Below, piece after piece: positions 39,180 to 43,922 of a stretch of DNA of 64,000 bases. Position numbers and translations under genes: made by a program. This DNA comes from Anaerohalosphaera lusitana (GTDB lineage: Bacteria > Planctomycetota > Phycisphaerae > Sedimentisphaerales > Anaerohalosphaeraceae), in the NCBI RefSeq assembly GCF_002007645.1, contig NZ_CP019791.1:1984001-2048000 (forward strand), given 5' to 3'. Below the pieces are notes generated by a model. The model ran no database searches and was not told where the DNA came from. It saw only the letters and a list, made by a program, of their open reading frames with translations. How positions within the stretch are numbered: position 1 is the stretch's first letter; each line of letters starts with the position of its first letter.

Positions 39180-39212
39180 TTGCCATGCCAGGACTTCTGT
39201 GCTATGTATACT
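39180..39212 (+). promoter_or_regulatory. Candidate promoter for the riboswitch operon
   Basis: TTGCCA (39180-39185) with TATGTA (39203-39208, 17-base spacer) or the better box TATACT (39207-39212, 21-base spacer). It is the only promoter-like pair shortly upstream of the aptamer. Between 39024 and 39179 I see no other feature. Confidence 0.4.
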
Positions 39213-39239
39213 CTCGTTCTTTTGGAAATTTGAATACGC

Positions 39240-39477
39240 AACTGCAGGTCGAAAGTCATACAAGGCTTTCGGTTAAATGCAAGGGAACGCGGTGAAAATC
39301 CGCGACGGTCGCGCCGCTGTGAGCGTCCGACACGGCCCGCAAGGGTTGTGAGTCCGTCAGACATTATCCCACTATTTCTGTTTAGAATGGGAAGGGGTCT
39401 GATGGTAGGATGCGAGTCAGAAAACCTGCCTGGAGTTGAATATAGTTTTGCGTTCTCGCGGCATGGAACAACAAAAC
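39240..39477 (+). promoter_or_regulatory. Cobalamin (vitamin B12) riboswitch with kissing-loop hairpin
   Basis: All parts of the Rfam cobalamin class are visible: GCAGGT (39244-39249) paired to ACCTGC (39424-39429); the core 'AAGGGAA', 'GGTGAAAATCC' and 'GCCGCTGTGAG' (39281-39324); the P7-P8 arm between 39357 and 39404; and the B12 box 'GTCAGAAAACCTGCC' (39416-39430). A downstream hairpin with stems GTTTTG/CAAAAC and GTTC/GAAC (39445-39477) displays GCGGC in its loop, complementary to GCCGC of loop L5, the expected kissing interaction. Binding of cobalamin should switch off the genes downstream. These are a PEP-CTERM protein, a beta-propeller and a prepilin, not classic B12 genes. Confidence 0.95.
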
Positions 39478-39545
39478 GGTACACGGATATAGTGTAACTG
39501 CAGGCAATCTCTGCAGCCTATACGAAGTTCGTGAATGGAATTTAT

Positions 39546-39582
39546 AACCGTCGTTCTCTGTTCGAGGACGGCGGTTTTTTTT
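39546..39582 (+). terminator. Intrinsic terminator, probable expression platform of the B12 riboswitch
   Basis: AACCGTCGTTCT pairs with AGGACGGCGGTT (12 bp with two G-U pairs) over a 7-base loop, followed by eight T. The 7-mer CGTTCTC in its 5' arm (39552-39558) also occurs in the kissing-loop hairpin (39451-39457), so that hairpin's 5' arm could pair with the terminator's 3' arm and act as antiterminator. Confidence 0.85.
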
Positions 39583-39700
39583 ATGCCGTTTTCACCAACG
39601 CCTCCGTTAGATCAGATTGTGCACAGACGGAGCAAAGTGTCGGCATTTGTCAGGGCCCGCGTAAAGGTCCGTTTAATGAATTATGTAAATAAGGTGATTT

Positions 39701-39798
39701 CCATTTCCATGTTAAGCCCACGGGCTTGCGGCAGGGTTGTTTCGTCGCGGTCGCTTTGCAAAAGCGGCTGCGACGAGAGCTGTCGCGACAGCAAATGG
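39701..39798 (+). other. Candidate structured RNA in the leader of the PEP-CTERM gene
   Basis: CCATTT (39701-39706) can close with AAATGG (39793-39798) around three hairpins: AGCC/GGCT (39715-39726), a long stem CGTCGCGGTCGCTT with AAGCGGCTGCGACG (39743-39775) and the palindrome GCTGTCGCGACAGC (39779-39792). It ends 26 bases before the ATG at 39825. I do not recognise a known riboswitch class. The fold was drawn by eye. Confidence 0.45.
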
Positions 39799-39824
39799 AT
39801 AAATTGTATGAAAGGTGATGATCG

Positions 39825-40613
39825 ATGAAGAAGTCATTGACAGCAGTAGTTTTGATATTAGCGGTATCAGCAGGCACGGTGCAGGCCGGTACTTCGTTTG
39901 CAGGCAGGGTCGTTTCTTATGATCCCAGTACCGCGTCGGAGTCTGGTTATACGAATCCTGAGGCAGCATTGGGGCAGATTGCCGTTGATACGGGGTGGGG
40001 TGCTACAACGCCGTTCAATATGCCATTTACTTCAGATGATTTTGTGACGATCGGTGAGGGAGGTCATCTTACGCTTGAGCTTGAGAATTACCTTTTGCCA
40101 GGGGACGGCTTCGAACTGGGAGTATTCAGCTATCAGATGTTTTATCAGGACGGCTGGCCCGACGGAGGGACGACGGATCCGGTGGATCTGTTTCGCCCGA
40201 CTCAGATGGCGGTCGTGGAGGTAAGCGAGGGTGGTTCTGATTGGTATGCTCTCAACGGAGGCGACAGAATTCAGATGGATATGCCAGCGGCAGCTTACAG
40301 TGATGCTGAAGCAACAATAGAGTCAGATTTTAGCAAGCCTTTTACTGTGAGTCTCAGTGATTTTGACGGGCTTGGTAGTGTGCAGGAGGTTTTGGATGTA
40401 TTTGACGGTTCAGCGGGCGGCACTTGGCTGGATGTGTCCGAAGCGGGGCTTGATCGTATAGGCTATGTTCGATTCACCGTGCCTTACGGTGATGCTTTTG
40501 AGCTGGAAGCCGTTTCGATCGCAAGCGGTGCGATCGGTGCCGCAGTTCCTGAGCCGCTGAGCATCCTTCTGCTCGGAACCGGCGCATGCTTCTTGCGAAG
40601 AAGATCCAGCTAG
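39825..40613 (+). CDS. PEP-CTERM-anchored surface protein, first gene under B12 riboswitch
   Basis: 262 residues. Signal peptide about 1-21 ('KSLTAVVLILAVSAGTVQAG'). The body contains 'VVSYDPSTASESGYTNPEAA', 'DDFVTIGEGGHLTLELEN' and a long beta-rich middle, a pattern shared by a family of exported proteins often labelled only as cell surface proteins. The C-terminus 'AVPEPLSILLLGTGACFLRRR' is a textbook PEP-CTERM signal: VPEP, a hydrophobic helix and a basic end, recognised by an exosortase. The enzyme is not in the window. Control by cobalamin suggests a role in B12 capture or replacement; this is inference. AAAGGTGATG precedes the ATG. Confidence 0.9.
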   Translation: MKKSLTAVVLILAVSAGTVQAGTSFAGRVVSYDPSTASESGYTNPEAALGQIAVDTGWGATTPFNMPFTSDDFVTIGEGGHLTLELENYLLPGDGFELGVFSYQMFYQDGWPDGGTTDPVDLFRPTQMAVVEVSEGGSDWYALNGGDRIQMDMPAAAYSDAEATIESDFSKPFTVSLSDFDGLGSVQEVLDVFDGSAGGTWLDVSEAGLDRIGYVRFTVPYGDAFELEAVSIASGAIGAAVPEPLSILLLGTGACFLRRRSS

Positions 40614-40630
40614 GAATCTCGCTTAACTTC

Positions 40631-40661
40631 GGCAGGGCGGTTATTTCCGTCCCTGCCTTTT
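40631..40661 (+). terminator. Hairpin between the PEP-CTERM and propeller genes
   Basis: GGCAGGG-CGG pairs with CCG-CCCTGCC (one bulged T) around TTATTT, followed by TTTTC. It lies 18 bases after the stop and 13 before the next start, so it may act as an attenuator or mRNA-stabilising structure rather than a full stop. Confidence 0.55.
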
Positions 40662-40673
40662 CAGGATAATCGA

Positions 40674-42215
40674 ATGAGTAGAATTGCCCTGACAATTGGA
40701 TTTGCTGTTGTATCAGCCTTCGCGGGTCTGTGTACTGCAGGCAGCACGGCTATCAATTCATGGCTGAACTACGGCGGCAATTCGTCGCGGACCCCGATCG
40801 CGGTCGACGGGCCTGATACGGTCAGCTCTTCGAATCTCGCATGGGTTGCCGGGACCGATCCATGGGACCCGGTTTACGCGATCGATTTCGAATGGGCCAG
40901 CACACCGGTTCTGCATGCCGGCAAAGTATTTGCATATGCACATTACTATGACAGCAGCGGTTCACACGTCAGCAATCAGGTAATCGCTTTCGACTGTCAA
41001 ACCGGCGATGTGGCCTGGGCGACGGTCGTCGACAAGGCATACATGGATTCGTGGTCGAGCCCAGCAATAGACACAGAACATAACCTCGTACTTATCGGCT
41101 CGGGCACCAACGTTTATGCACTGGATATTATCACAGGCCAGATACAGTGGCAGACCGCATTGCAGGCACCGGTCGTTAACGCTTCCGTCTGCATTGCGGA
41201 TGACCTCGACAACGGCAGGGCCTACATAACCGATTACACAGGCTATAGCGACGGCGGCCGACTGTATTGCATTAACCTCGATCCGAATGACGTTGACACA
41301 AATCCTTACGAGCCGGGCGAAATAGTCTGGTCCGATTCGATAGGTGCGACCAGCGGCAACAGCCCTGCCTATAAGGACGGTACCGTTTACGTCGCCTGCG
41401 TATCCCAGAACAGTTGGGATGGCGAAGGGTCGGACAATGGAGCGGTATTCGCATACGACGCTGACGCGGATCAGCCGGTGCGAGTATGGCAGACGAGCAG
41501 TTCGCAGTTCGAGGGCTTCTTCGGGGCGGTCACGGTAACCAAAGAAGGCTTTCTCTATGCGGCCAATTATGATTTCTACGGCACCGGCGACAACTCCGCC
41601 CTGTGCAAGATCGATTGTGCGGATGGTTCGATCGTCTGGGTCACACAAACCGAAAGAACCAACTCGACGCCGGTGGTGGTCGCTGACACGGTCTACATCT
41701 GCGGCGGAGTTAACGGGTATGGATCTAGGCCCAAAGTGCAGGCTTTCAGGGACCAGGGAAGCAACGCTGTCAAACTCTGGGAGACGCCCGAGACAATGTC
41801 GATCGGCGGCAGCACGAACCAGGTAGTTTACGCCAATGGCAAATTATACGTCGGCGGCAGGCAGGCGGATGAATACAGCTTCGATCCCTACTCGCAGTTA
41901 TTCATTCTCGACGCTGATAAAACCCCTGCTGACCCCGGTTTTATTATAAGCCGGTATTCCGGTTGCGGCAGCAGCTCTGCGGCGACTTACGACAGCGTTT
42001 ACAGCATCGGCTACGATGGTCTGCACAAATTCTATCAGCCCGGCTATGCGGGTGATATCAATGATGACGGCACACTGGATCACGCGGATATATTGCTTCT
42101 CGCCGAGGAATGGACGTACGACGGGGCGGTTGGCCTCAAAAGGTCTGACCTGAATCTGGACGGCCGGGTCGATATGAAGGATCAGGCCCTGATAGCTGGT
42201 GAATGGAACAGGTGA
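40674..42215 (+). CDS. Secreted PQQ-like beta-propeller protein with C-terminal dockerin-type repeats
   Basis: 513 residues. Signal peptide about 1-22. Residues about 30-455 consist of repeated PQQ/YWTD-like blades, e.g. 'STPVLHAGKVFAYAHY', 'VIAFDCQTGDVAWATV', 'VYALDIITGQIQWQTAL', 'SPAYKDGTVYVACVS', 'STPVVVADTVYICGG'. The last 60 residues hold two EF-hand-like dockerin repeats, 'GDINDDGTLDHADILLLAEEW' and 'DLNLDGRVDMKDQALIAGEW', which bind calcium and usually dock onto cohesins. No PQQ-enzyme active site is evident, so it is probably a binding protein. It is second in the B12-riboswitch operon. Confidence 0.88.
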   Translation: MSRIALTIGFAVVSAFAGLCTAGSTAINSWLNYGGNSSRTPIAVDGPDTVSSSNLAWVAGTDPWDPVYAIDFEWASTPVLHAGKVFAYAHYYDSSGSHVSNQVIAFDCQTGDVAWATVVDKAYMDSWSSPAIDTEHNLVLIGSGTNVYALDIITGQIQWQTALQAPVVNASVCIADDLDNGRAYITDYTGYSDGGRLYCINLDPNDVDTNPYEPGEIVWSDSIGATSGNSPAYKDGTVYVACVSQNSWDGEGSDNGAVFAYDADADQPVRVWQTSSSQFEGFFGAVTVTKEGFLYAANYDFYGTGDNSALCKIDCADGSIVWVTQTERTNSTPVVVADTVYICGGVNGYGSRPKVQAFRDQGSNAVKLWETPETMSIGGSTNQVVYANGKLYVGGRQADEYSFDPYSQLFILDADKTPADPGFIISRYSGCGSSSAATYDSVYSIGYDGLHKFYQPGYAGDINDDGTLDHADILLLAEEWTYDGAVGLKRSDLNLDGRVDMKDQALIAGEWNR

Positions 42216-42220
42216 AACTG

Positions 42221-43087
42221 ATGTCACATGATCGAACAATCAAGCGAACGGGCAATGAAGGCTTTACGCTTATAGAGCTTCTTGTGGTTATCGCTGTGAT
42301 AAGCATGCTCATGGCTGTCATGCTTCCCGCGCTCGGTGCGGTCAAGCAGAAAGCAAAGGGTCTGGTCTGCATGAGCAAGCTCAAACAAATGGGTATCGCA
42401 TTCTGGGCCTATGCAGCCGACAACAATGACTATTCCATACCCACCTATGATCCCGATGATAACACTTATTGGTGGGGGCAGATCAAATCCGACGGCATCG
42501 ATCACAAGGCTGGTTTTCTGTACCCATACATGCAGAGCAGTCTGGAAGAGGGCGGTATCTACGAATGCCCCTCCCAGCCGTTCGGCAGTTACGAGCTTCA
42601 AGCCAAACCCGCTGACGAGTCCGTTTCGCCCGATTGGATCACAAGCACCTATGGATATAACGGCTACTACCTCGCTCCGCCAAGCAGTCCCTGGCAGAAT
42701 ATTCATGACAAACCCTGGCAGAGACTTGCCGGCGTATCAAATAGCGGAAAGGTGATAGCTTTCGCCGACAGCATGCTCGATTGGAACATCCGGCCCGACC
42801 AGGCAGAGCTGTCAAACAACGCAATGATAGACCCGCCGATGATACTCTCTGCTGACAAAACCGGATGGCAAAAGAATCCGTGTCCAACGACCAGCTTCAG
42901 ACACGACGACCGCACAAGTGTCGTATTCGTCGACGGACATTGCGAAACCAAACCTGTCGAGGACGGTCAATACACCAGCCCCAGCGCAAAAATAGGCTCC
43001 ATCACCGCGACCAACGGCCCATACTATGTGCCCGATTACGAAAGCTGGCCTACCGGTGAACGCAGACGCAGGCGGGCCGCGAACTAG
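42221..43087 (+). CDS. Prepilin-like protein of the H-X9-DG type
   Basis: 288 residues from ATG 42221, preceded by AGGTGA; an ATG at 42203 overlaps the propeller gene. The leader ends 'GNEG' before 'FTLIELLVVIAVISMLMAV'. Typical planctomycete features follow: 'KAKGLVCMSKLKQMGIAFWAYAADNND' region (residues about 45-75) and, near residue 235, 'RHDDRTSVVFVDGH', i.e. His-x9-Asp-Gly. An Arg-rich tail ends the protein. Such prepilins are abundant in planctomycetes and of unknown function. Tight spacing with the propeller gene (5 bases) ties it to the cobalamin-controlled unit. Confidence 0.88.
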   Translation: MSHDRTIKRTGNEGFTLIELLVVIAVISMLMAVMLPALGAVKQKAKGLVCMSKLKQMGIAFWAYAADNNDYSIPTYDPDDNTYWWGQIKSDGIDHKAGFLYPYMQSSLEEGGIYECPSQPFGSYELQAKPADESVSPDWITSTYGYNGYYLAPPSSPWQNIHDKPWQRLAGVSNSGKVIAFADSMLDWNIRPDQAELSNNAMIDPPMILSADKTGWQKNPCPTTSFRHDDRTSVVFVDGHCETKPVEDGQYTSPSAKIGSITATNGPYYVPDYESWPTGERRRRRAAN

Positions 43088-43139: not shown

Positions 43140-43922
43140 ATGAGGAGCTTTACTGCCAGTTTAATATCACAAACTCGTTGCTTTGCCGGATCTCTCAGAA
43201 AAGGACTGAGCGATCTGCTCTGGCCGGGCGTCTGTTGCCATTGCGGAACTCATCTTCCCGGCAACGAGGAATTCCTTTGCAAAAAATGCTGGGATGACTT
43301 CCAGGTATGTACCGCCGGCGATTATTGTCCTCATTGCGGCCGAGACGCAAGCGGCTACGGCTTGCTCGACGGTCAGTGCGGCAATTGCTTGGACCGCGAG
43401 ATCATGTTCGACAGCATTGCACGGGTCGGCATATACGACGGCCTGCTGCGAAATCTCATCCTCAAATTCAAGTTCCATGACGGCTGTGAACTGGCACCCA
43501 GATTGGGCGAATTGGCCGGTGCTTCACTCTGTACCGCTGAATTTGCCCATGAAATCGACTATTTCGTGCCCGTCCCCCTGTTCTGGCTGCGGCGATTCGG
43601 ACGCGGTTATAACCAGAGCGAGCTGATATGCAAAAAACTCCCAGCCCGCCGGGCTCCGATCAACAACGACCTTGTCCGCATACGCGACACACAAAGACAG
43701 TGGAACCTCACGTCCAGCAAGCGAAAAAAGAACGTCGCCGGAGCCTTCGCCGTACGAAAGGGCCACGATTTTGCAGGCAAGAGAATCTGCCTGGTTGACG
43801 ATATAATAACCAGCGGCGCGACATTGAACGAATGCGCCGCCGTACTGAAGTCAGCCGGTGCCGAGCAGGTTCATGCTCTTGTGCTCGCCGTGGCCGCCCA
43901 GGATTCACGTACCTCGGCCTGA
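43140..43922 (+). CDS. comF: ComF family phosphoribosyltransferase-like protein
   Basis: 260 residues. The N-terminal zinc finger has CxxC pairs 'CCHCG', 'CKKC', 'CPHCG' and 'CGNC' (residues about 32-85); the C-terminal PRTase domain shows 'PVPLFWLRRFGRGYNQSELI' and the PRPP loop 'ICLVDDIITSGATLNEC'. ComF proteins act in DNA uptake during transformation in several bacteria, probably with PriA. A pilus system and cinA are elsewhere in this window, but physical linkage to competence is not shown. The next gene, murJ, starts 41 bases later. Confidence 0.92.
   Translation: MRSFTASLISQTRCFAGSLRKGLSDLLWPGVCCHCGTHLPGNEEFLCKKCWDDFQVCTAGDYCPHCGRDASGYGLLDGQCGNCLDREIMFDSIARVGIYDGLLRNLILKFKFHDGCELAPRLGELAGASLCTAEFAHEIDYFVPVPLFWLRRFGRGYNQSELICKKLPARRAPINNDLVRIRDTQRQWNLTSSKRKKNVAGAFAVRKGHDFAGKRICLVDDIITSGATLNECAAVLKSAGAEQVHALVLAVAAQDSRTSA

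Follow-up and report, generated by a model that had tools for sequence, protein, structure and literature searches.

A cobalamin riboswitch leads a candidate surface operon for vitamin B12 capture in the planctomycete Anaerohalosphaera lusitana

Introduction

What would three exported proteins do behind a cobalamin riboswitch? The question is raised by a locus of the planctomycete Anaerohalosphaera lusitana at positions 39,180 to 43,087 of a 64,000-nucleotide stretch of its genome (hereafter the window; contig NZ_CP019791.1, 1,984,001 to 2,048,000), where an earlier, sequence-only reading had described a cobalamin riboswitch with its terminator, followed by a PEP-CTERM protein, a dockerin-tagged beta-propeller and an H-X9-DG prepilin. 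That reading, which also named a kissing loop in the riboswitch, proposed a planctomycete counterpart of the B12 capture proteins of Bacteroides, assembled from other parts, or alternatively proteins whose work is taken over by others when B12 is plentiful. Our analysis makes it quite likely that the locus is a B12-repressed operon for the capture of cobamides at the cell surface, with the propeller as binder and the prepilin as its matched partner. Observations in its favour include the following: the slot occupied here by the propeller is held in related loci by a published B12-binding family or by a protein of transcobalamin-type fold, genes for BtuF, BtuC and BtuD are linked to some of these loci, and the host probably depends on imported cobamide.

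In Bacteroides, the surface B12-binding lipoproteins BtuG, BtuH, BtuGH and BtuJ are under the control of riboswitches (PMC8941943, PMC12751083). BtuH binds B12 through its C-terminal domain, and btuH homologues are mentioned in three Firmicutes (PMC8941943). Proteins of the DUF4465 family also bind B12, as assayed for eight distant members, with one of the chosen proteins coming from the planctomycete Mucisphaera, and genome-neighbourhood analysis ties the family to B12 transporters generally (PMC13398666). Additionally, a transcobalamin-like SLBB clade was noted in planctomycetes in 2007 and a role in B12 scavenging was proposed for it (PMC1796856). In the open-licence literature we found no description of a gene set like the one studied here or of a pilin in B12 uptake, nothing relevant that links PEP-CTERM, pilins or dockerins to cobalamin, and no description of how B12 passes the envelope of planctomycetes and their relatives.

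Results

The riboswitch and its operon

The cobalamin riboswitch aptamer (RF00174) lies at 39229-39447 on the + strand, as do all the features of the operon described below, and matches the covariance model over its full length (model positions 1-189; 79.2 bits against a gathering cut-off of 31.5; E 7.3e-18). It is the single match (E <= 0.001) in the whole genome of 4.25 Mb, which is 99.96% complete. Between the aptamer and the first gene, a 13-bp hairpin at 39546-39576 with a T run on to 39582 forms the predicted intrinsic terminator of the expression platform, in a leader (39420-39600) with a folding z of -4.1; the aptamer and the terminator named by the sequence-only reading were thus recovered. 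The terminator scan gave four sites overall against 3.3 in shuffles, so that the weight of the terminator comes from its conservation across leaders. A hairpin of at most -12 kcal/mol with a T run was found, at a comparable distance from the aptamer, in 42 of the 45 leaders of related loci (window counted in) against 5.4% of shuffled leaders, the shuffles preserving base composition only. The three leaders lacking a hairpin were short as measured, and perhaps their start codons were miscalled.

Three genes for exported proteins follow on the same strand as the riboswitch. Gene 1 (39825-40613) encodes 262 residues and carries a PEP-CTERM sorting signal in its tail (residues 240-260, 40542-40604; PF07589, 21.1 bits against a cut-off of 20.7). 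After a gap of 60 bp, gene 2 (40674-42215) encodes a 513-residue protein composed of a PQQ_2-type beta-propeller (65.7 bits) and a C-terminal type I dockerin (residues 459-507, 42048-42194; Dockerin_1, PF00404, 25.6 bits against 22.9). Gene 3 (42203-43087), which overlaps gene 2 by 13 bp, encodes a 294-residue prepilin with a cleavage and methylation segment (residues 18-41, 42254-42325; N_methyl, PF07963, 29.7 bits against 21.2) and the H-X9-DG motif in its translation (HDDRTSVVFVDG), and all three proteins are therefore of the kinds that had been recognised from the sequence. Open reading frames were picked by length, hence their start positions are uncertain. Family scans gave no enzyme family above cut-off in the three proteins and no TonB-dependent receptor among the three genes and both neighbours.

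The trio could also be decoupled from the riboswitch, whose transcript would then end at 39582 while the three genes are read from a B12-independent promoter of their own. The stretch of about 240 nt from the terminator to gene 1 leaves room for such an internal promoter, and the operons of Bacteroides thetaiotaomicron show signs of internal promoters (PMC12751083). However, the terminator is kept in the 42 leaders mentioned above, the linkage to a riboswitch is kept in all eight loci that have a propeller of the window type, and a weak scan, covering one promoter type, gave no promoter-like site on the + strand from the terminator to gene 1. The sole + strand promoter-like site was at 39185-39212, immediately 5' of the aptamer, in a scan giving four such sites against 3.6 by chance. 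We regard decoupling as very improbable.

Cassettes in related genomes

A covariance search for RF00174 in relatives from the family and the order, 59 genomes with that of A. lusitana counted in, found 65 sites in 54 of them. For 48 of these riboswitches at least 3 kb of downstream sequence was present, and the 17 with less were left out of the count that follows. A cassette made of one or more exported proteins and then an H-X9-DG prepilin lies behind 38 of the 48. The binder slot of these 38 cassettes is held by a family of short proteins that we call F1 in 19, by DUF4465 in 14, by a window-type propeller in three and by other proteins in two; in a slightly different set, Pfam DUF4465 matched 15 of 38 first-gene proteins. 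These loci were themselves the source of the hidden Markov models (HMMs) for BtuF, BtuC and BtuD, DUF4465, F1, F2 (see below), pilin and propeller, and the F1 protein of one of them (L111) also matched the DUF4465 HMM weakly (5e-8). BtuF, BtuC and BtuD genes stand directly 3' of the cassette in five of the 38, and CobT does so in one locus.

The structure of F1 was approached through an AlphaFold model of a planctomycete protein in which F1 is fused to F2 (L145; predicted local distance difference test, pLDDT, of 73). The F1 half resembles the transcobalamin and intrinsic factor beta domain with Z up to 12.0, and the first 14 rows of the comparison are all B12 carriers, with a root-mean-square deviation (rmsd) of 2.2-2.8 over 100-106 residues. 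F1 has no strong family in NCBIfam; profile searches of PDB sequences with F1 and F2 gave one antibody chain (E 0.72) and no true relative of either.

The ten riboswitches that do not lead a cassette precede cobalamin genes (four), apparent nrdD, nrdG and metE genes (two), radical-SAM enzymes (three) or opposite-strand genes (one), these targets (cob, nrd, metE) being mostly assigned by eye. The genes nrdD, nrdG and metE are classic B12-independent substitutes. Their presence behind the riboswitches of two relatives (L075 and L078; by eye) favours a reading in which the operon serves a function needed only when B12 is scarce, such as a substitute pathway or adhesion, rather than capture. Against such a role, DUF4465, for which B12 binding is published, holds the slot in 14 of 38 cassettes and the family with the transcobalamin-fold model holds it in 19, BtuF, BtuC and BtuD follow the cassette in five, and the three proteins of the window show no enzyme family above cut-off. 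We consider this role improbable. The order-wide cassettes, the DUF4465 proteins in their binder slot, the adjoining BtuF, BtuC and BtuD genes and the dependence of the host described below instead support the counterpart, a surface capture system built from other parts, that had been proposed from the sequence.

Furthermore, comF lies right after the cassette in 23 of 43 loci of the order, with every binder type, and 52 nt after it in the window (comF, 43140-43922), which suggests a common site of cassette exchange.

The propeller

Propellers of the window type (E <= 1e-20) occur in eight of 161 genomes of the order, at one place each and in eight genera. All eight sit behind RF00174 and before a prepilin; the sequence-only reading hinged on relatives of the trio being linked to such riboswitches elsewhere, and they are. 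In five of the eight loci the propeller is the first gene of the cassette and F2 was not found there, whereas in the other three (the window, G036 and G101) it is preceded by an F2 protein whose tail is PEP-CTERM-like. By analogy with the proteins that hold the same slot in relatives, the propeller would be a cobamide binder. Its identification as BtuG by sequence was rejected, as no PF16819 was found among its matches up to E 1, and the sequence-only reading had rightly claimed no such homology.

Gene 1 and family F2

Gene 1 belongs to F2 (E 6e-47 with the F2 HMM), its beta-sandwich domain covering residues 20-220 (39882-40484, HMM match range; mean pLDDT of about 87 over residues 1-200 of the mature protein). 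The alternative of a DUF4465 protein was rejected, since gene 1 is an F2 member and the genome has no PF14717 match. F2 proteins were found behind 41 of the 65 riboswitches of the relatives set, window gene 1 counted in. In most relatives the cassette's second gene is an F2 member, often with a dockerin, and Dockerin_1 is present in 21 of 39 second-gene proteins. The family has two subfamilies, which profile-profile comparison relates at E 2.3e-18, and it weakly resembles the Leptospira LIC_13355 lipoprotein in NCBIfam (13 of 22 members, best 8.7e-7).

In public genomes we examined the best 80 of 250 F2 loci, at least eight of which were already in the relatives set. RF00174 lies upstream on the same strand in 65 of these 80 (by batch 9/15, 13/14, 13/15, 11/14, 12/15 and 7/7), whereas, at a rate of 65 per 59 genomes of about 3 Mb, the 797 kb scanned would be expected to hold well below one site by chance. 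An F1-F2 fusion is encoded in 18 of the 80. Nine of the 15 riboswitch-negative loci start at a contig end less than 300 nt from the cassette. Riboswitch-positive loci carry the titles Planctomycetota, Armatimonadetes, Verrucomicrobia, Kiritimatiellae and Lentisphaerae; in several bacterial phyla, B12 switches are followed by related sets of a B12-binding-type protein and a pilin. Five loci (L185, L195, L203, L209 and L213), several titled Armatimonadetes, have the order switch, pilin, F2, F1 instead of binder, F2, pilin, one of them (L209) being cut at the contig start with no switch visible. In addition, two loci from WOR-3 and from a bin titled 'bacterium' (L180 and L189) hold PQQ propellers, F2, a TonB-dependent receptor and more exported proteins in one run, an arrangement that recalls the B12 locus of Bacteroides; the RF00174 search was negative there.

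For the F2 half of the fusion model, the closest solved structures were 7biz, the domain with which BtuH binds B12 (Z 7.7, 25% identity over 159 residues), and then 8blw, in the BtuH portion of BtuGH (Z 7.1, 23% identity; next row 5.9), although these values fall below 8, where according to the tool's own warning a likeness may be a mere common arrangement. The model of gene 1 itself (pLDDT 78, predicted template modelling score 0.78) had 8blw as its first Foldseek match (E 1.1e-6; next 6.2e-4) and aligned with 7biz by VIA at an rmsd of 3.3 over 143 residues. The models indicate that gene 1 likely has a BtuH-like fold, a relationship that the sequence-only reading had not drawn, and leave family membership unproven.

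The prepilin

A maximum-likelihood tree was built from 42 cassette pilins and 20 of the remaining 55 prepilin-like loci of the A. lusitana genome, leaving out the long-branch L105. The cassette pilins formed one clade (97/93) that excludes 19 of the 20 own-genome paralogues, and within it the F1-type and the propeller-type pilins each formed one clade (100/99 each) in which host families are intermingled; this separate lineage had also gone unremarked before. Binder labels changed four times on a 43-row pilin tree, compared with 19.9 times for shuffles, and more than one type is present in each of five host families (f1, f2, f4, f5 and f7). Additionally, the tail motif VP[DN]YxxW is present in the pilins of all eight propeller loci (in the window as VPDYxxW...RRR, 43022-43084), in none of 108 other cassette pilins, some of which are cut off at contig ends, and in none of the 20 own-genome paralogues. 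By these patterns pilin and binder travel as matched pairs, which could reflect contact or shared inheritance only, and a part for the pilin in B12 capture is what we infer.

The B12 economy of the host

The genome has four matches to the B12-binding domain PF02310, three of them above cut-off and one a corrinoid protein, while CbiC and CobS, the two biosynthesis genes searched, were not found. Because corrinoid-type proteins are present and both CbiC and CobS are absent, the host, judged from its gene content, probably relies on imported cobamide. The one FecCD permease above cut-off belongs to a BtuFCD-type set (C1:3512388-3515178) for which the best NCBI vitamin-B12 models score below their cut-offs. 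The only two TonB plug matches of the genome are at C1:477707-479716 (L217) and C1:2315589-2318624 (L218).

Discussion

The proposed operon would work as follows. When cobalamin is plentiful, its binding to the leader RNA would stop transcription at 39546-39582, whereas under scarcity the operon would be read through and its exported products made and displayed. The dockerin-tagged propeller would be the main binder, in the slot held by a DUF4465 or transcobalamin-fold protein in relatives, with the PEP-CTERM protein as a divergent BtuH-like partner. The prepilin, as matched partner of the binder, would display it or help to move the vitamin inward, and import would be completed by the BtuFCD-type transporter, whose genes lie at another place on the chromosome. 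Both the binding of B12 by the propeller and the regulation of the operon by B12 are predictions.

Besides the low Z scores of the F2 half of the fusion model, several results weigh against a capture operon. PQQ_2 propellers serve many functions, and that of the window lacks any match to the BtuG family. When scored by VIA, the gene 1 model is about as close to other folds (PAPP-A 10.3, F-lectins 9.3) as to BtuH (7biz 10.3, 8blw 10.1), and four F2-containing profiles found no BtuH chain among PDB sequences up to E 10. Six F2 loci with upstream sequence lack RF00174 (L173, L178, L180, L181, L189 and L194); BtuC/D-type genes lie near two of them (L173, L181) and a TonB receptor near two others (L180, L189). 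The operon of the window and the BtuFCD-type set are not adjacent. Neither TonB receptor of the genome is a clear BtuB, one being TOL_0244-like. The genome contains 56 prepilin-like matches in all, the best of them after gene 3 being 36% identical to it, and the pilin HMM, which gives gene 3 302 bits, scores 19 of 20 own-genome paralogues at 87-122 bits and one at 183; given this lack of specificity the HMM alone is no proof of family, and the tree with paralogues is the better test. In that tree one orphan paralogue (L225, C1:3575510) falls among the DUF4465-type pilins, with no binder, F2 or riboswitch found near it. This orphan prepilin (G000:C1:3575408-3576223, L258:5909-6724), with its DUF4465-type grouping in a genome without DUF4465, may be left over from a cassette that has been replaced.

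A further point against is the divergence of gene 1, which deviates at 13 of the 34 columns conserved in F2, the GN motif included, where each of the other 40 members departs at four at most. In a second F2 alignment the window departed at 19 of 38 columns, G041 at 15, G036 at nine and the rest at five at most; the conserved columns were picked from the remaining members, a bias against the window, G041 and G036, yet the gap is wide. G041 carries another dockerin protein, and the divergence looks like relaxed constraint where a second binder is present. From these departures the F2 protein of the window may have lost B12 binding. Together with the failure to find F2 in five of the eight propeller loci, this is what would be expected if the propeller had taken over.

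As for passage through the outer membrane, capture could be combined with a conventional step in which the binder hands the cobamide to a TonB receptor encoded elsewhere and the pilin serves only to anchor or export the binder. This would be the capture reading in a narrower form, contesting only the pilin-assisted step. The genome does have two TonB plug matches, and the binders of Bacteroides work with BtuB (PMC10404256). Moreover, the two WOR-3-type loci place F2 and PQQ propellers beside a TonB receptor, which makes a receptor elsewhere the sober expectation. However, neither receptor is linked to a riboswitch, the sole RF00174 site being that of the operon, the 669-residue receptor reaches 90 bits where the cut-off for BtuB is 599.7, and the pilin lineage is tied to the binder type. 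We give this conventional route somewhat less than an even chance. A bolder possibility, which we hold to be unlikely, is a pilus-assisted importer, in which every cassette would couple a cobamide binder to a pilin lineage of its own and an extending or retracting pseudopilus would carry the loaded binder over the surface layer or outer membrane in place of BtuB and TonB. Host families would then have swapped binder and pilin together, and unrelated binding folds, three in number (the BtuJ jelly roll, the transcobalamin beta-grasp and the PQQ propeller), would serve in the same machine.

The cassettes share with the BtuG, BtuH, BtuGH and BtuJ systems of Bacteroides the presence of riboswitch-controlled exported binders, predicted ones in the window. 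A propeller is accompanied by a BtuH-type domain, fused to it in BtuGH and, as a likely fold, encoded by the adjacent gene in the window, DUF4465 (BtuJ) is found in sister cassettes, and BtuFCD follows in some relatives. In contrast, the locus of the window has no BtuB gene, bears PEP-CTERM and dockerin tails and includes a prepilin; its propeller is PQQ_2-type and not PF16819, and gene 1 is a divergent F2 member. The DUF4465 proteins (PF14717) that fill the slot in other cassettes usually come with PEP-CTERM, whereas this genome has none. With regard to the transcobalamin-like SLBB proteins, the F1 of sister cassettes models as the same fold, although none is present in the window, and the riboswitch, F2 and the pilin go unmentioned in the portion of PMC1796856 available to us. 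With other planctomycete prepilins of the H-X9-DG class gene 3 shares that motif and a methylation segment at its N-terminus, but the cassette pilins form a clade of their own, with binder-specific branches behind riboswitches.

All these data point to an undescribed surface system for B12 capture. They offer testable functions for groups that had no role, namely F2, F1, the window-type propeller and the pilin clade, and, by the fusion model, they reveal bacterial proteins encoded after cobalamin riboswitches that combine a transcobalamin-type with a BtuH-type fold. They also raise the possibility of a pilin taking part in the uptake of a small molecule.

Other features were observed in the window and in the surveyed loci. 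A GC-rich hairpin followed by TTTT lies between genes 1 and 2 (40635-40652, within 40629-40660, + strand); the number of such sites in the scan was near chance, and the hairpin may act as an attenuator, reducing the expression of genes 2 and 3. In the two relatives with apparent nrdD, nrdG and metE genes (G016 and G024), the riboswitch before them is an extra one, as both genomes also carry a cassette. Lastly, the riboswitch target at L080:9759-11165 is the radical-SAM peptide-modifying enzyme CbpB (TIGR04163, 728.7 bits), and targets of the same class are present at two further loci (L087 and L093); these genes are divergent from a cluster that by eye resembles cob genes.

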